Shown: positions 5,997 to 42,185 of the stretch, in pieces
How positions within the stretch are numbered: the stretch's first letter is position 1
Layout of the letters: each line of letters starts with the position of its first letter
Made by a program: the position numbers and the translations under genes
Assembly: GCF_036287235.1 (NCBI RefSeq)
Contig: NZ_CP142850.1
Location: 2,447,336 to 2,511,335, forward strand
From: Exiguobacterium sp. 9-2
GTDB taxonomy: Bacteria; Bacillota; Bacilli; Exiguobacteriales; Exiguobacteriaceae
Length of the DNA: 64,000 nt
Direction: 5' to 3'
Notes under the pieces: generated by a model
The model's input: the letters and a program-made list of their open reading frames with translations, nothing else
The model's database searches: none
What the model was told of the DNA's origin: nothing

Positions 5997-6827
5997 TTAC
6001 TTCGCCTCCTTTTTTGAACCGTCCAAGTAACGAACGGCATTGCGACGAATGACAAGCATGATCACACCGAAGATGACTAAACAAATCGAGACGACTTGCG
6101 CCGTCCGCAGTCCGTCAGCCATCAGACTATCCGTCCGGAGTCCTTCGATAAAGTAGCGTCCGATCGAATACCAAATCAAATAACCGAGGAAGACATATCC
6201 ACGACGTGGGTTGAACTTCATCCGCCAGACGATTAATAGAATGACACCAATGATGTTCCAGACGCTTTCATAGAGGAATGTCGGTAAGTAGTATGTCCCG
6301 TCGATGTACATCTGATTGACGATCCAGTTTGGTAAGTGCAACGTATCTTGTAAGTACGACCATGTCGTCTCGCCGCCGTGTGCCTCTTGGTTGAAGAAGT
6401 TGCCCCAGCGTCCGACGGCTTGACCGAACAAGAGCGACGGTGCCAGGATATCAGCGATCTGCCAGAACGAGATCTTTTTCTTCCGCGTATAGATGATGAC
6501 CGTCAAAATCGCGCCGATGATCGCGCCATGGATCGCGATCCCACCTTGGCGGATGTTGATGATTTGATCGAGATGCTGACTGTAGTAGTCCCACTCGAAC
6601 GCGACGTAGTAAATCCGGGCACAGATGATACTGATCGGAATCGACCAGATGACGACATCGACCGCATACTCTTCATTGAAGCCGATCCGCTTCGATTCGA
6701 AGATCGCGATCAACAGGCCGACGACCGCACCGAGTGCGATGACGATCCCGTACCAGTAAATCGGTACCGGTCCGAGATTGATTGCGACGCGATCAAATGT
6801 TGGTTGTACAGAGGCTAGAGTTCCCAT
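5997..6827 (-). CDS. lgt: Prolipoprotein diacylglyceryl transferase
   Basis: Lgt attaches diacylglycerol to the lipobox cysteine of prelipoproteins at the membrane. The 276-residue protein has seven hydrophobic segments, the [11 protein letters not shown] motif, the signature [16 protein letters not shown] and a C-terminal [22 protein letters not shown] block, all hallmarks of the family. The ATG at 6827 is chosen; a TTG codon immediately before it (6830) is a less likely start. The start overlaps the hprK stop as TGATG. Its substrates here would include the CccB and OppA-like lipoproteins. Confidence 0.97.
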
Positions 6828-31412: not shown

Positions 31413-31801
31413 CAGAACAAGAACTCTACGCGATGACCCCGCAACAGCTGACGGAAGTGATGTTGACGGGACTCGTCCTTCAATACGATCGCGCCATTCT
31501 CGCACGTGATACGAACCGTTTTGACGAGGTCAACGAACGCTTACAAAAAGCCTATCAGTTACTAGACAAATTGCAGGCGGGGTTACACGACGACGGTGGC
31601 ATCATCACGGCACAACTGGACGCGCTCTACCACTATCTTGCTGAGCAAACGTTACAGGTTTATAAGACGCCGCGTGTCTTAGACGAACTACTCGAACTGG
31701 CAGAAGACTTACGCGTCACTTGGCAAGCGGCACAGACCGTCGATCGACCACTCGTGCGCGCCGCACATCATCAACGATACGAAGGGATGGAATACGAATG
31801 A
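31409..31801 (+). CDS. FliS-like flagellin chaperone, second copy
   Basis: The 130-residue all-helical protein follows the FliS layout: TPQQLTEVMLTGLVLQYDRAI, then NERLQKAYQLLDKLQAGL and an alpha helix with LYHYLAEQTLQVYK. It overlaps the next flagellin gene by ATGA, so chaperone and flagellin are translationally coupled. It is diverged from the canonical FliS at 34462-34830. It probably serves the flagellin encoded directly downstream; this is inference. Confidence 0.75.
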   Translation: MTEQELYAMTPQQLTEVMLTGLVLQYDRAILARDTNRFDEVNERLQKAYQLLDKLQAGLHDDGGIITAQLDALYHYLAEQTLQVYKTPRVLDELLELAEDLRVTWQAAQTVDRPLVRAAHHQRYEGMEYE

Positions 31802-32688
31802 GAATCACGAACAACGTTCAAGCCTTAAAGGCTTATCGCAATCTCAGCATCAACCAGACGAACGTCAAGACGACGATGGATAAACTATCGAGCGGTCAAA
31901 AAATCAACCGGGGTGCGGATGATGCAGCTGGTCTCGCGATCTCGGAGAAGATGCGCAACCGTTTGAAGGCGCTCGATAAAGCGGAACAGAACGTCCTTGA
32001 CGGCGTCTCGATGATTCAAACGGCTGAAGGCGGTTTGAGTGAGACACATAACTTATTACAACGTATGCGCGAACTCGCCGTCCAAGCTGGTAACGGTACA
32101 CTCGCGACGGAAGACCGGACAGCGATTCAAGAAGAAATCAACCAGCTGACGAACGAGGTCTCGCGGATTGCAAAGACGACCCAGTTCAACGGCAAAGAAT
32201 TGTTGAGCGGCAAGTTCAACGATGCCGACAGTGCGCTGTTCATCCAAACGAATGCTGGCGCCAACGAAGGCATCTCGATCACGATTGACGACATGCAAGC
32301 TCTTGCGCTTGATATCAGTTCAACGACACAAGCTGATCCCTCGATTCGTCCGCTTGATTTCTCGAGCAGTGACGCACCCGAATACGCCCTCAGCGTCATG
32401 ACGGCAACGGATGCGAATGATGCGATCAGCCATTATACGAAAGCAATTGATACGATCTCTCAGCAACGTTCACAACTCGGGGCAATTCAGAACCGGTTTG
32501 AAGCGACGTCATCCGTCCTCAGCGTCAGCGTCGAGAACTTGACGGCTTCAGAGTCGCGGATTCGCGACACCGATATGGCGCGTGAGATGATGGAATATGC
32601 GAAGTACAACATCCTTAACCAATCGGGGATGGCGATGATCGCTCAAGCGAACGCCTTGCCGCAAGGCGTCTTACAATTACTCAACTAA
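31798..32688 (+). CDS. Second flagellin
   Basis: The 296-residue protein has full N-terminal (MRITNNVQALKAYRNLSIN; KINRGADDAAGLAISEKMR) and C-terminal (SRIRDTDMAREMMEYAKYNIL; ALPQGVLQLLN) D0/D1 domains and a short variable centre (about 140-215). It is shorter than the main flagellin (454). The ATG at 31798 overlaps the chaperone stop. Under the sigma-D promoter at 29187 it could contribute a minor filament or an alternative surface. Confidence 0.92.
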   Translation: MRITNNVQALKAYRNLSINQTNVKTTMDKLSSGQKINRGADDAAGLAISEKMRNRLKALDKAEQNVLDGVSMIQTAEGGLSETHNLLQRMRELAVQAGNGTLATEDRTAIQEEINQLTNEVSRIAKTTQFNGKELLSGKFNDADSALFIQTNAGANEGISITIDDMQALALDISSTTQADPSIRPLDFSSSDAPEYALSVMTATDANDAISHYTKAIDTISQQRSQLGAIQNRFEATSSVLSVSVENLTASESRIRDTDMAREMMEYAKYNILNQSGMAMIAQANALPQGVLQLLN

Positions 32689-32701
32689 GGAGGCAGATCC
32701 G

Positions 32702-36791: not shown

Positions 36792-36824
36792 AGTCGGTCA
36801 CTCCTTATTTATTCTCTATGTAGT

Positions 36825-36851
36825 ATATCGGTCAAATCATCTGATTTGTTA
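36825..36851 (-). promoter_or_regulatory. Sigma-D-type promoter of flaG-fliDST
   Basis: Minus strand TAAC (36848-36851), 15-base spacer, ACCGATAT (36825-36832), 33 bases before the flaG ATG. Confidence 0.72.
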
Positions 36852-36870
36852 GAGTTCGAATACAACAAAA

Positions 36871-36901
36871 CAAAAAAGGTCACGGAACGAGTCCGTGACC
36901 T
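36871..36901 (-). terminator. Terminator after the downstream flagellin 3' segment
   Basis: Perfect AGGTCACGGA / TCCGTGACCT stem followed on the minus strand by TTTTTTG. It is the first terminator after hag and lies beyond the group I intron and the extra flagellin 3' end, so all of these should be in one transcript. Confidence 0.92.
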
Positions 36902-36927
36902 GAACAATCGATATGTGCCAATTATGA

Positions 36928-36972
36928 TTAACGGAGTAATTGGAGAACGCCTTGCGGCTGTTGGTTCGCTTG
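36928..36972 (-). CDS. Flagellin C-terminal coding segment (probable hag 3' exon)
   Basis: The minus strand encodes QANQQPQGVLQLLR followed by TAA, the canonical flagellin C-terminus. It has no start codon and is preceded in frame by TAG (36973-36975), the presumed last bases of the intron. It aligns codon for codon with the C-terminus of the complete hag frame (QSNQTPQGVLQLLR), so it is best read as the exon that a group I intron would join to hag. It could also be a leftover of a recombination event. Confidence 0.7.
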   Translation of the reverse strand, partial: QANQQPQGVLQLLR

Positions 36973-37296
36973 CTACGCGCATTAGCTTTCGCTAATGATA
37001 AGACTATATCTTCATCCTAGATTTACTAGGAGCTGGGCACTTCCCCCGCCGTTTACGGAGTACGGATTTCATAACCATCGGACAAGTCCATTAGGTCGTC
37101 TATCCTAGTCGTTGAACCTTCACCAAGGTTTCCCTACAGGTGCTTGGCTGCTGATTGTCCAATCCTTGATGTTTTTCAGAACGGTCACGCTCGCCGTTTC
37201 CAGCCACGTTGTCGTACATCAAGGCTCTCAGGAGTTCCAGCAATTCACCCAGTCATGATCTAATCCGTTACCAGATTAGACGCCCGGTAGAATCGA
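36973..37296 (-). ncRNA. Group I intron downstream of the hag frame
   Basis: On the minus strand the conserved elements appear in order. P2 hairpin TCTAATC/GATTAGA (37259-37280); P3 5' strand CTGGG (37248-37252); P element AATTGCTGGAA (37235-37245); Q element AATCAGCAGCCAAG (37143-37156); R element GTTCAACGACTA (37106-37117); P3 3' strand CCCAG (37033-37037); P8 hairpin TCCTAG/CTAGGA (37015-37031); S element AAGATATAGTC (37002-37012), whose TAGTC pairs with GACTA of R to form P7; and a GAAA-capped P9 hairpin CATTAGC/GCTAATG (36980-36997). Extra sequence between R and P3 3' fits P7.1/P7.2 of subgroup IA. There is no endonuclease frame. The likely terminal G is complementary to 36973. The 5' splice site and P1 are not certain and may lie inside the hag frame. 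Confidence 0.88.
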
Positions 37297-38661
37297 TCAT
37301 CGAAGGAGTTGGAGAACGCCCTGCGGTGTTTGATTCGATTGAGCCAACATTGCTTGTGCAGCTTGTGCAAGAATCGAGTTCTTTGTTTGGTTCATCATTT
37401 CTTTCGCCATATCAACGTCGCGAACGCGAGATTCAGCGGCTGTTAGGTTTTCAGAAGATGTTTTGAGGTTGTTGATTGTATGATCCAGACGATTTTGCGT
37501 CGCTCCTAATTTAGAACGTTCAGAGGACACAGTTTCAATCGCTTTATTGATTGAAGTAATAGCCGCATTAGCCCCTACTTGACTTGTTACATTTAGAGCA
37601 TCCACTCCCAGAGCAGCCGCACCCATATCATTGACTGAAAGAGTTGTATTTTGATCAGCATTTGCTCCAATTTGTAGTTTCACTGCATTATCTTTTACAT
37701 TTAATACCGTTGTATCATTAGTAGTAGCTTGTCCCCAAGTCATCTTAAACTCAAGACCACCTACGTTTAATGATTCACCTGCATAAGAAGAAATTGCTGC
37801 TGTTGTTACAGTTTTTGCACCACTTAAATCAACTTTTAGTCCTGCATTAGTCAAACTAAAGTTAATGTTTCCAGATGTATTTGCCGCTAAATCAAGTGCA
37901 TGAGTATCAAAATCAAATGTAATACCACCAATTGCTAAATCACTGTTTAAGGCAACGCCAGAAGCAGTTGTTTGCTTTCCGTCTGGACCTGTTAACGTTA
38001 CATCAGCAGTACTACCAGCACCGCGAGTAACCGCTAATGAGTAGTCACCATAGTTAGTACCTGCTGCTGCAGTAATATCTCCTGCAACAAGAGTACTTGC
38101 AGCTGTTTTTGTGTTAACTGTTGTAGTGTCAGTACCACCTGCAGTTGCAGTTAGCGTGTAAGTCCCATTAGTAATATCATTCCCAGTAATTTTTAAATCA
38201 GTAGGTCCTAAAGTATTTGTAGAAGATGAAAAAGTTTTGCCCATTTGACCATTTAATAATTTCTTAGTATTGAACTCTGTATTTGTTGAAATTCTAGTGA
38301 CTTCTGTAGAAAGTTGATCCATTTCTTTTTGAATTTCAGAACGATCTGAGCTAGTGTTTGTATCAGTCGCTGATTGAACAGCTAACTCACGCATACGCTG
38401 TAAGATATCATGCGTTTCATTCAATGCACCTTCAGCCGTTTGAATCATTGAAATACCATCTTGTGCATTTCGTGAAGCTTGATCAAGTCCGCGAACTTGA
38501 GCACGCATTTTTTCAGAGATTGCAAGACCAGCTGCATCGTCGCCTGCTTTATTGATGCGGAGACCTGAAGCAAGTTTCTCCATTGACTTGCTTTGTGCTG
38601 CAGAAGCTGCAGACAATTTGTTGTGCGTGTTAAGCGCAGTTACGTTGTGATTGATAATCAT
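37297..38661 (-). CDS. hag: Main flagellin Hag (5' exon of an intron-containing gene)
   Basis: The 454-residue flagellin has conserved N- (MIINHNVTALNTHNKLSAA; GDDAAGLAISEKMRAQVRGLDQ) and C-terminal (SRVRDVDMAKEMMNQTKNSIL; QSNQTPQGVLQLLR) D0/D1 domains around a long Thr/Ala/Gly-rich variable domain (about 145-365). ATG 38661 follows GGAGGG; the frame is open 77 codons further but that is leader. The central part is visibly richer in A/T than the flanks. A group I intron and a second copy of the C-terminal coding segment follow the stop codon. Expression should be under sigma-D and CsrA control. Confidence 0.95.
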   Translation of the reverse strand: MIINHNVTALNTHNKLSAASAAQSKSMEKLASGLRINKAGDDAAGLAISEKMRAQVRGLDQASRNAQDGISMIQTAEGALNETHDILQRMRELAVQSATDTNTSSDRSEIQKEMDQLSTEVTRISTNTEFNTKKLLNGQMGKTFSSSTNTLGPTDLKITGNDITNGTYTLTATAGGTDTTTVNTKTAASTLVAGDITAAAGTNYGDYSLAVTRGAGSTADVTLTGPDGKQTTASGVALNSDLAIGGITFDFDTHALDLAANTSGNINFSLTNAGLKVDLSGAKTVTTAAISSYAGESLNVGGLEFKMTWGQATTNDTTVLNVKDNAVKLQIGANADQNTTLSVNDMGAAALGVDALNVTSQVGANAAITSINKAIETVSSERSKLGATQNRLDHTINNLKTSSENLTAAESRVRDVDMAKEMMNQTKNSILAQAAQAMLAQSNQTPQGVLQLLR

Positions 38662-40323: not shown

Positions 40324-41832
40324 TTATTTCCGCTCAATCTCAACATACTTATATGAGATATCCGTTCCGACATTGTGTCGTGCGAGATTTTTGACTTCCG
40401 TGTTTTGCAAGAAGGCATTCTTCCGTTGGTAGACCGGTGAGATCGCTTGATCGTCGAGCAACAAGCTTTCCGCTTTACTGAGTAAGGCGAGACGCTTGTC
40501 TTGATCGAGTTCACTTTCAGCCTGTTTCAAGAGACGGTCATACTGTTTGTTCGAATAACCCATCATGTTGAACGGGTTACCCGTCGTGAACAAGTTCAGG
40601 TATGTCGTTGCATCCTGATAGTCTGGTGCCCAGCTCGCAAGTGACAGATCGTAATCCCCTCGTCCTTCACGGGCGAGACGCTCTTTCTTCGGTAGTGATA
40701 ACAATTTAACGTCGACATTCTGCTTCTTCAACGCCCCTTGGATATACTCCCCGATTTTTTTCGAGACGTCGTCATCTTCGATCAACATCGTCAACTCAAG
40801 GTTTTGCTTTGCCAGCACTTTGTTTGCCGCTGCTACATCATATGACGATTCGATTTGACGCGCACTATCGTATTTCGGATCAAGTTCTTTTGGCACGATG
40901 TAGTCAGCAGGGAGTGATCCGTTTCCGAGCAACGTTTCCGTCATCGCTTTTTTATCATATGCCGCATCGATCGCTTGGCGTGTTTCTTTATCTTTTAAGG
41001 CATCTGTTTTTTCGTTCATCCGGATGAAGAACATCCGCGAATCACTGAACGTGTTGTACTCTTTTTGATCCTTATACGTGACGACGTTCTCCGAGTTGAG
41101 TGGCGCGACATCGAGCTCTCCTGACTCGAACAAGTTGATCGCAAGCATCGGATCCTTGATGATTTTAACGTCGACTTCGTCGATTTTGACGTTCTTCCGG
41201 TCTGCGTACTCAGCGTTTTTCGCGAGCGTATAACCTTGTTCCGCTTGATATTTCTTGAACGTGAACGGTCCGTTGTAGACGTTCGTCTTTGGATCCGTTC
41301 CGAACTGGTCGCCTTCTGCTTTGACGATATCTTCCCGGACCGGCATATATGTGCCGAACGTCGTCATGCTGAGAAAGTACGGTGTCGGACGTTTCAGTTC
41401 GATTCGGAGTGTCTCGTCGTCGACTGCTGTCGTTTTTTCGACCGGCTCAAGCAAATAAGCGAACGGTGAGTTCGTTTTGACGACACGCTCGAACGCATAA
41501 CGGAAGTTCTCCGCTGTGACGGGCTTTCCGTCTGACCATTTGGCATTCGGGTCGAGCTTGAACGTGTAGACTTTTCCGTCCTCTGATACGCTATGCGATT
41601 TGGCTGCTGCCGGAACAAGTTCGTTCTTCTCATCAAAACGATAGAGTCCTTCGTAGATTTGATTGAAGATGTTTGACGTGATGGCATCTGCCGGGTCGAC
41701 CGACAGGAGGTCGTAACTTTCCATCGTATGCAAGACCTTTTTGTCCGCTTGTTTGTCTTCTGCTGGTTCTGTCGTTGCACATCCTGCTAATAGGACTGCC
41801 GTACTCGCCGCTGCGATCAATGTCTTTTTCAT
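40324..41832 (-). CDS. OppA-like peptide-binding lipoprotein under T-box control
   Basis: The 502-residue protein has a lipoprotein signal (lipobox LLAGC, Cys at 18) and the SBP family 5 pattern (SVDPADAITSNIFNQIYEGLYRFDEKNELVPAAAKS; WSDGKPVTAENFRYAFERV; VYNGPFTFKKYQ). It should capture peptides outside the membrane for an ABC importer. No permease or ATPase genes are adjacent, so it would have to use a transporter encoded elsewhere. Its leader is a T-box with a Trp specifier, suggesting induction when charged tRNA-Trp is scarce. Confidence 0.93.
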   Translation of the reverse strand: MKKTLIAAASTAVLLAGCATTEPAEDKQADKKVLHTMESYDLLSVDPADAITSNIFNQIYEGLYRFDEKNELVPAAAKSHSVSEDGKVYTFKLDPNAKWSDGKPVTAENFRYAFERVVKTNSPFAYLLEPVEKTTAVDDETLRIELKRPTPYFLSMTTFGTYMPVREDIVKAEGDQFGTDPKTNVYNGPFTFKKYQAEQGYTLAKNAEYADRKNVKIDEVDVKIIKDPMLAINLFESGELDVAPLNSENVVTYKDQKEYNTFSDSRMFFIRMNEKTDALKDKETRQAIDAAYDKKAMTETLLGNGSLPADYIVPKELDPKYDSARQIESSYDVAAANKVLAKQNLELTMLIEDDDVSKKIGEYIQGALKKQNVDVKLLSLPKKERLAREGRGDYDLSLASWAPDYQDATTYLNLFTTGNPFNMMGYSNKQYDRLLKQAESELDQDKRLALLSKAESLLLDDQAISPVYQRKNAFLQNTEVKNLARHNVGTDISYKYVEIERK

Positions 41833-41895: not shown

Positions 41896-42185
41896 AAAGG
41901 CGTCCTCTACGCATAGCTAACAGCTAATGCATAGAGGACGCCTGTATCCGCGCGGTGCCACCTCTGATTGAGACGAAGAATCGTCTCCCCTTGTCGCTGG
42001 TCCAACAACCAGCTAGCCCGGTAACGGGGGCAACCGTCCTGTCTACTCGAAGGTTCAACAGGCTCTCAGCGGTCCATTCTCGTTCAGCTTACCGTGTCAG
42101 GCTCTCACCATTCCTGACTCGCTTGGTCGGCAGTGTTGACGATACTTACTCCGCGTCGTCGATGTAATTGATATGGCTTAACTTG
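41896..42185 (-). ncRNA. T-box riboswitch, UGG (Trp) specifier
   Basis: On the minus strand the leader holds the T-box GAGGTGGCACCGCG (41951-41964) and a terminator with long arms AGGCGTCCTCTA / TAGAGGACGCCT plus TTTTG (41898-41943, T-run to 41893). Stem I has a specifier loop flanked by GCGG/CCGC and TCGT/ACGA pairs: 5' strand AGTAAGTA (42143-42150) and 3' strand GAATGGA (42073-42079). AGTA/GAA forms the loop E motif, which places the codon as UGG (42074-42076), followed by A. The T-box bulge UGGC pairs with a GCCA acceptor end, consistent with a G discriminator as in bacterial tRNA-Trp. The stem I apical motif GGAATGGTGAGAGCC is also present. Confidence 0.92.

Follow-up and report, generated by a model that had tools for sequence, protein, structure and literature searches.

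Group I introns are known from the flagellin genes of thermophilic Bacillus and Geobacillus (Hayakawa and Ishizuka 2009, 2012, as cited in the available parts of PMC3984707 and PMC4853749), as the original prediction for the locus described here had noted. The available part of PMC4853749 assigns the flagellin intron to subgroup IA2 and describes its activity as temperature dependent, and that of PMC3984707 states that group I introns are disfavoured in bacterial protein genes, where coupled translation disturbs intron folding. The closest described case that we have seen is C.te.I1, a group II intron in a surface-layer gene of Clostridium tetani: its true 5′ splice site precedes the stop codon of the upstream open reading frame (ORF), so that this codon falls within the intron; protein is encoded by the mRNA both before and after splicing, and four alternative splicing reactions give rise to distinct proteins in this one organism (PMC3919590, available part). 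In Clostridioides difficile, a c-di-GMP-controlled group I intron acts through the ribosome-binding site; the available part of PMC8987985 describes no duplicated coding end.

This study concerns a group I intron in the flagellin gene (hag) of Exiguobacterium sp. 9-2, located in a stretch of 64,000 nucleotides of contig NZ_CP142850.1 that is termed the window throughout. As far as the citing papers describe them, the introns of Hayakawa and Ishizuka are likewise group I introns in flagellin, and their insertion site and ending may differ; in the genomes read here there are two flagellin intron sites, and a copied gene ending is found at the second site only. The window intron shares with C.te.I1 the position of the upstream frame's stop codon within the intron and a message that encodes protein in either state, but belongs to group I, has one 3′ exon, is predicted to yield near-identical products, occurs in many genera and carries copied codons that form ribozyme structure. 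With the C. difficile intron it shares the absence of an endonuclease and a splicing state that would matter for translation. Fungal mitochondrial endonuclease elements also supply a replacement coding end: they bring their own gene C-terminus and the native end is displaced, whereas in hag both ends appear to be under protein selection. A literature search, which did not reach the Hayakawa and Ishizuka originals, found no description of a duplicated flagellin ending in an intron, and this does not imply absence. Flagellin-gene group I introns are already known; for the duplicated ending within one, no earlier report was found.

The hag locus and its intron

Table 1. Features of the hag locus, in window positions. 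P and Q labels were assigned in this analysis.
Feature	Position	Strand	Remarks
hag (flagellin) exon 1	37342..38661	−	ATG at 38661, GGAGG before it; last base U37342
last exon-1 codon, GCU (Ala)	37342..37344	−	U37342 is the predicted 5′ splice-site base, U.G pair with G37284
group I intron	36973..37341	−	369 nt; first base C37341, terminal G36973; RF00028 82.9 bits
intron-encoded copy of flagellin C-terminus, QSNQTPQGVLQLLR-stop	37297..37341	−	in frame with exon 1; P1 loop
P1 extension 5′ strand, GAAUC	37332..37336	−	within copied coding region; duplex energies
P1 extension 3′ strand, GAUUC	37290..37294	−	just after intron-encoded stop; duplex energies
guide GGGC (P1)	37282..37285	−	pairs with exon GCU and intron C1; invariant or compensated in 62/62
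P element region	37231..37245	−	Rfam alignment and position comparison
Q element region	37146..37159	−	Rfam alignment and position comparison
R element, P7 5′ strand	37106..37117	−	Rfam alignment and position comparison
S element, P7 3′ strand	37002..37012	−	Rfam alignment and position comparison
hag exon 2, QANQQPQGVLQLLR-stop	36928..36972	−	45 nt; protein-type parsimony changes over 62 genomes
terminator-like hairpin 3′ of exon 2	36877..36901	−	terminator scan of 36800–37400

The Rfam model RF00028 matches the minus strand of the window at 37305–36980 (E 1.4e-19), with a score above the gathering score of 50 (table 1). The alignment spans the whole model (1–253), with a 64-nt insert after the R element, and includes the P, Q, R and S elements and the P3–P9 core. 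Marks of subgroup IA2 include P7.1/P7.2 after P7, among others. The folding energy of the RNA lies 3.0 s.d. below that of 100 dinucleotide shuffles, by a method that cannot show the P3/P7 pseudoknot; in the minimum free energy fold of the window RNA, exon 1 is paired with exon 2 in place of the proposed P1, and the pseudoknotted core is outside such folds. No ORF of at least 60 amino acids was found inside the intron on its own strand, and thus no endonuclease of the kind that marks a mobile group I intron; two short plus-strand ORFs overlap its ends. The window element is a group I intron for which self-splicing is predicted.

These results agree closely with the original prediction, which from the letters alone had proposed an endonuclease-free group I intron of about 320–370 bases between two flagellin C-termini and had named a covariance-model search of the minus strand as one check. 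A C-terminus with its stop codon flanks the core on each side, all four elements could be placed (R and S reading as it had written them), and the span that it had marked, 36928–37341, coincides to the base with the intron and the 45-nt exon 2 together. Its description of a C-terminal coding stretch followed by a terminator also holds: exon 2 is followed by the single terminator-like site in 36800–37400, where 0.4 would be expected by chance. Its remark that the intron lies beside a complete hag frame needs revision, since it had placed no splice sites. The frame exists, and matches Pfam Flagellin_N and Flagellin_C (run on 37297–38637), but it ends inside the intron; because the 5′ splice site lies upstream of the first C-terminus, that C-terminus is not exon and the frame is completed by intron sequence.

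The upstream C-terminus, comprising the last 14 codons and the stop, is therefore the first 45 nt of the intron. Predicted splicing drops this copy and joins ...MLA to QANQQPQGVLQLLR-stop. The unspliced mRNA encodes 454 amino acids ending LAQSNQTPQGVLQLLR; the predicted spliced mRNA also encodes 454, ending LAQANQQPQGVLQLLR, and its product differs from the unspliced one at two residues. The C-terminal peptides SNQTPQGVLQLLR and ANQQPQGVLQLLR tell the two predicted products apart. Exon 2 of the window has no start codon of its own and directly follows an in-frame TAG, so its translation should depend on splicing. A possible start codon is present in the short open stretch that leads in frame into exon 2 in 15 of 62 genomes (ATG in three), and there exon 2 might be translated from unspliced RNA as a tiny peptide.

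A second flagellin gene is situated at about 31801–32690 of the window on the plus strand, some 4 kb from hag; it ends ANALPQGVLQLLN and has no intron. Each of the 19 same-genus genomes has two flagellin N-terminus matches with an E-value of 1e-30 or lower. Elsewhere in the window, a T-box leader (41931–42168, minus strand, 99.6 bits) lies just upstream of an ORF (40324–41832) that by eye resembles an oligopeptide-transport substrate-binding protein.

Splice sites and P1

The placement of the splice sites relies on comparison of 62 introns at the same position, MLA↓Q (site 2; the arrow marks the splice site), for which both exons were read. The first intron base C, the last base G, the exon-end U and the guide GGG are each kept in all 62. 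Exon GCU is combined with guide GGGC in 59; the other three, from genomes of one clade, have exon UCU with guide GGGA, which, as read from the exon and guide sequences, is a compensatory change. The common layout is an exon ending in MLA or MLS and an intron that starts with C, encodes 14 residues before a stop codon, and continues through a short segment and the guide (GGGC or GGGA) to the core and a terminal G, followed by CAA of the 3′ exon; another genus of the family and numerous other Bacilli show this layout. In two site-2 introns that lack the copied ending (L094 and L100) P1 is, by eye, a simple hairpin that begins at the same GCU↓. Because of this P1 anatomy, the terminal G in 62/62 and the compensatory change, the intron was set at 36973–37341. 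Inspection by eye shows a single C–G pair between the guide and the 3′ exon and no evident P10.

The alternative P1 of the Rfam model, with the 5′ splice site after the stop codon, was rejected: its pairing is not kept in relatives (genus alignment, by eye). T is the final base of the codon before the site in 60/60 distinct copy-bearing genes, against 6/27 distinct genes without an intron there, or 6/15 once the genus's own distinct second flagellin is set aside. In five of five same-genus genomes with an intronless main hag, the gene runs uninterrupted through MLAQANQQPQG/AVLQLLR-stop, the protein that splicing would restore.

Distribution in the Bacilli

Of 19 genomes of the genus, 14, among them that of the window, match a stretch of 371 nt around the intron at 93–100% identity, either over its entire length or short of it by one base. 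A 22-base pattern from the core occurs at 13 loci of the genome collection, 13/13 in Exiguobacterium records; the same motif was seen at 1425–1446 of an IMG/VR viral contig (L081), near an ORF (1521–2246) that by eye is maybe a homing endonuclease. The class-wide search matched 76 of 398 genomes, and a core-only query of the same genomes matched 71, all among those 76. The five that were lost had matched just the first 45–58 bases of the query, the flagellin ending, and the notion that relatives were found merely through the copied ending was rejected.

Outside the window's family 55 genomes matched. Stretches from 40 were read, the other 15 comprising 11 weak core pieces and four matches to the flagellin ending alone, and these 40 stretches yielded 22 site-2 introns with both exons (20 with the copy, two without). 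A search of one family (f3) matched 107/200 genomes; the best 30 loci were read and the copy was present in 30/30, of which ten had already been counted and 20 were added, at least two more near-full-length matches (G493, G530) standing outside the count. With 20 loci from the window's family, the sample comprises the 62 site-2 introns, 60 with the copied ending and two without, and the copy layout extends over 60 genomes, 15 genera and nine families (by search codes) of the class Bacilli. The original prediction had called the placement unusual, a fair guess that this recurrence qualifies. One of two near-identical contigs of G022 was counted, and two relics without recognisable exon 1 (G070 C6, G267 C61) were excluded. 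Truncated site-2 introns with exon 2 and no upstream flagellin exon 1 were seen in L187 (about 1500–1650) and L107 (about 6300–6690).

The two copy-free introns (L094 and L100; genomes G059 and G070) occupy different places on an intron-core tree from which the copied region was left out, in which 30 of 76 inner forks are weak and L100 and some neighbours sit on long branches. Their placement fits two losses of the copy, and their existence means that the copy is not essential.

A second intron site and mobility

The second flagellin intron site, RDVD↓MAKEMM (site 1), holds 18 introns at 17 loci, which form a separate clade (support 99/99); a further site-1 intron, in L100, was missed by junction recognition and is outside the 18. 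In contrast to site 2, these 18 introns all stop after a frame of 5–6 codons, without a copied ending. This frame starts with Y and ends in AA before the stop in 18/18 (YAKAA, YALAA, YVLAAA and others; e.g. the first intron copy in L082). Two introns occur in one hag gene in 12 of the 40 stretches read (L082, L084, L087–L093, L096, L100 and L104, with RDVD↓MAKEMM and MLA↓QANQQ), site-1 junctions being recognised too in 11; as the exon between tandem introns is short, exon skipping is conceivable.

One intron, that of L097, holds an endonuclease (PF03161, E 1.4e-19). In the sister genus, an open LAGLIDADG-like frame is found outside the intron at four of six loci, past the terminator and on the opposite strand, convergent with hag (L018, L020, L021, L025); in L019 it is split into two frames, and the sixth locus is without it. 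The L018 frame, the one tested, matches PF03161 at E 4.7e-13. Set beside the endonuclease-free window intron, these frames suggest an element once mobile and now mostly fixed. The sister genus also contains weak RF00028 matches (24–32 bits; L038–L043 and L045–L047, at 1501–1766) beside an ORF resembling a YfcE-type phosphodiesterase; ARAGORN found no tRNA beside these matches in the five of nine loci scanned.

Selection on both endings

The copy varies as coding sequence does. Among 14 same-genus copies there are nine variable columns, 9/9 at third codon positions. On the intron-core tree, parsimony assigns 66/19/173 changes to codon positions 1/2/3 of the copy over 60 genomes, the corresponding figures for exon 2 over 62 genomes being 35/11/134, and codons 9–13 (VLQLL) have undergone 88 nucleotide changes with no amino acid change in the copy (60 genomes) and 82 with one in exon 2, all of these counts resting on a tree with 30/76 weak inner forks. 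Mean pairwise differences per codon position are.249/.099/.511 for the copy; for the 42 nt that begin with the guide they are.263/.295/.276. The copy read out of frame gives pN > pS. Between each copy and its own exon 2, pS is 0.836 and pN 0.165 (60 genomes), and residue 8 is identical in 52/60; with synonymous sites near saturation, gene conversion was rejected as the cause of the protein similarity between the two endings. By these comparisons both endings evolve as translated protein, and protein selection on both is the plain reading. Such selection would mean that the unspliced and spliced messages have both been translated to useful flagellin over this history; as evidence for the use of both messages it is indirect.

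The copied codons also form RNA structure. Codons 2–5 lengthen P1 by pairing with the bases immediately 3′ of the copy's stop codon; in the window P1 is weak (four pairs plus a five-pair extension). At 40 loci the mean duplex energy with the own partner is −6.15 kcal/mol, against −4.30 (s.d. 0.22) with shuffled partners (0/1000 as low), and among 26 representatives it is −6.18 against −4.17 kcal/mol (0/2000 as low), kinship being ignored in both comparisons. Different codons with a matching partner are seen in L176 and L178 (GAAUACA opposite UGUAUUC); pairing is poor in L032 (−2.1 kcal/mol), L018 (−3.0), L003 (−3.2) and L021 (−3.4).

This pairing bears on the main rival explanation, a regulated isoform switch in which the difference between the endings has a function and splicing, under the control of temperature for instance, determines which flagellin C-terminus is produced. 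The copy and exon 2 do differ mostly at codons 2–5, e.g. SNQT or SNQM versus ANQQ, and the available part of PMC4853749 reports that ribozyme activity of a thermophilic Firmicutes flagellin intron, at a site that may differ from MLA↓Q, is temperature dependent and may regulate flagellin expression. The differing codons are, however, those of the P1-extension stem (pN between copy and own exon 2 of 0.341 in codons 2–5 and 0.098 in codons 6–14), so that RNA pairing can explain their divergence from exon 2, and the difference is not constant, since 6/60 copies keep A-N at codons 2–3 as in exon 2. We consider a regulated switch unlikely.

It is far less probable that the intron lies in the 3′ untranslated region, with its 5′ splice site after the upstream stop and exon 2 an untranslated relic of a duplicated gene end. 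The Rfam alignment does begin at 37305, beside that stop, but the P1 that this implies is the one rejected above; moreover, the copy-free introns and the exon-guide compensation both fit GCU↓, and an untranslated exon 2 would drift, yet shows a single amino acid change among the 82 nucleotide changes in codons 9–13. That the intron is a dead relic between copies made by recombination, with the upstream ending alone in use, is equally improbable: truncated forms of the intron do occur at other loci (G070 C6, G267 C61), but here the region is conserved in 14 of 19 same-genus genomes, the terminal G, guide and P1 extension are maintained, and exon 2 is under protein selection.

Splicing and the ribosome

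The best explanation, which we judge the most likely and probably correct, is a splicing-optional group I intron at MLA↓Q with a fail-safe flagellin ending. As the copy occupies the first 45 bases of the intron, complete flagellin can apparently be made with or without intron removal, and the arrangement appears to be maintained by selection in many related bacteria. Bacterial ribosomes trail the polymerase and would move into an intron whose 3′ half had yet to be transcribed; in an ordinary intron they would yield truncated flagellin and may unwind the core. On unspliced hag RNA, a ribosome would run from exon 1 into the intron copy, complete flagellin and halt before the catalytic core; on spliced RNA, exon 1 joined to exon 2 would give nearly the same flagellin. 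Both mRNAs should then be present in cells, and both proteins in the filament.

Judging from the size of ribosome footprints, a ribosome terminating at the stop codon within the intron would lie over both the P1 extension and the adjacent guide. Ribosome and P1 would thus compete: a given RNA molecule should be either translated or spliced, splicing would have to await an interval free of ribosomes, and neither outcome would waste protein. A further possibility, put forward tentatively, is a ribosome-gated switch: heavy translation would keep the RNA unspliced and light translation would permit splicing, so that the ratio of endings reports translation and the copied codons are selected as protein and ribozyme at once.

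The copy would be a direct answer to the conflict between translation and folding, in that the intron brings the protein's missing end. The two C-terminal peptides allow one to ask, by mass spectrometry, what share of a protein comes from spliced and from unspliced mRNA in a bacterial cell. Across many genera of Bacilli, one stretch of RNA appears to be under selection for its codons and, at the same time, for its part in a ribozyme.
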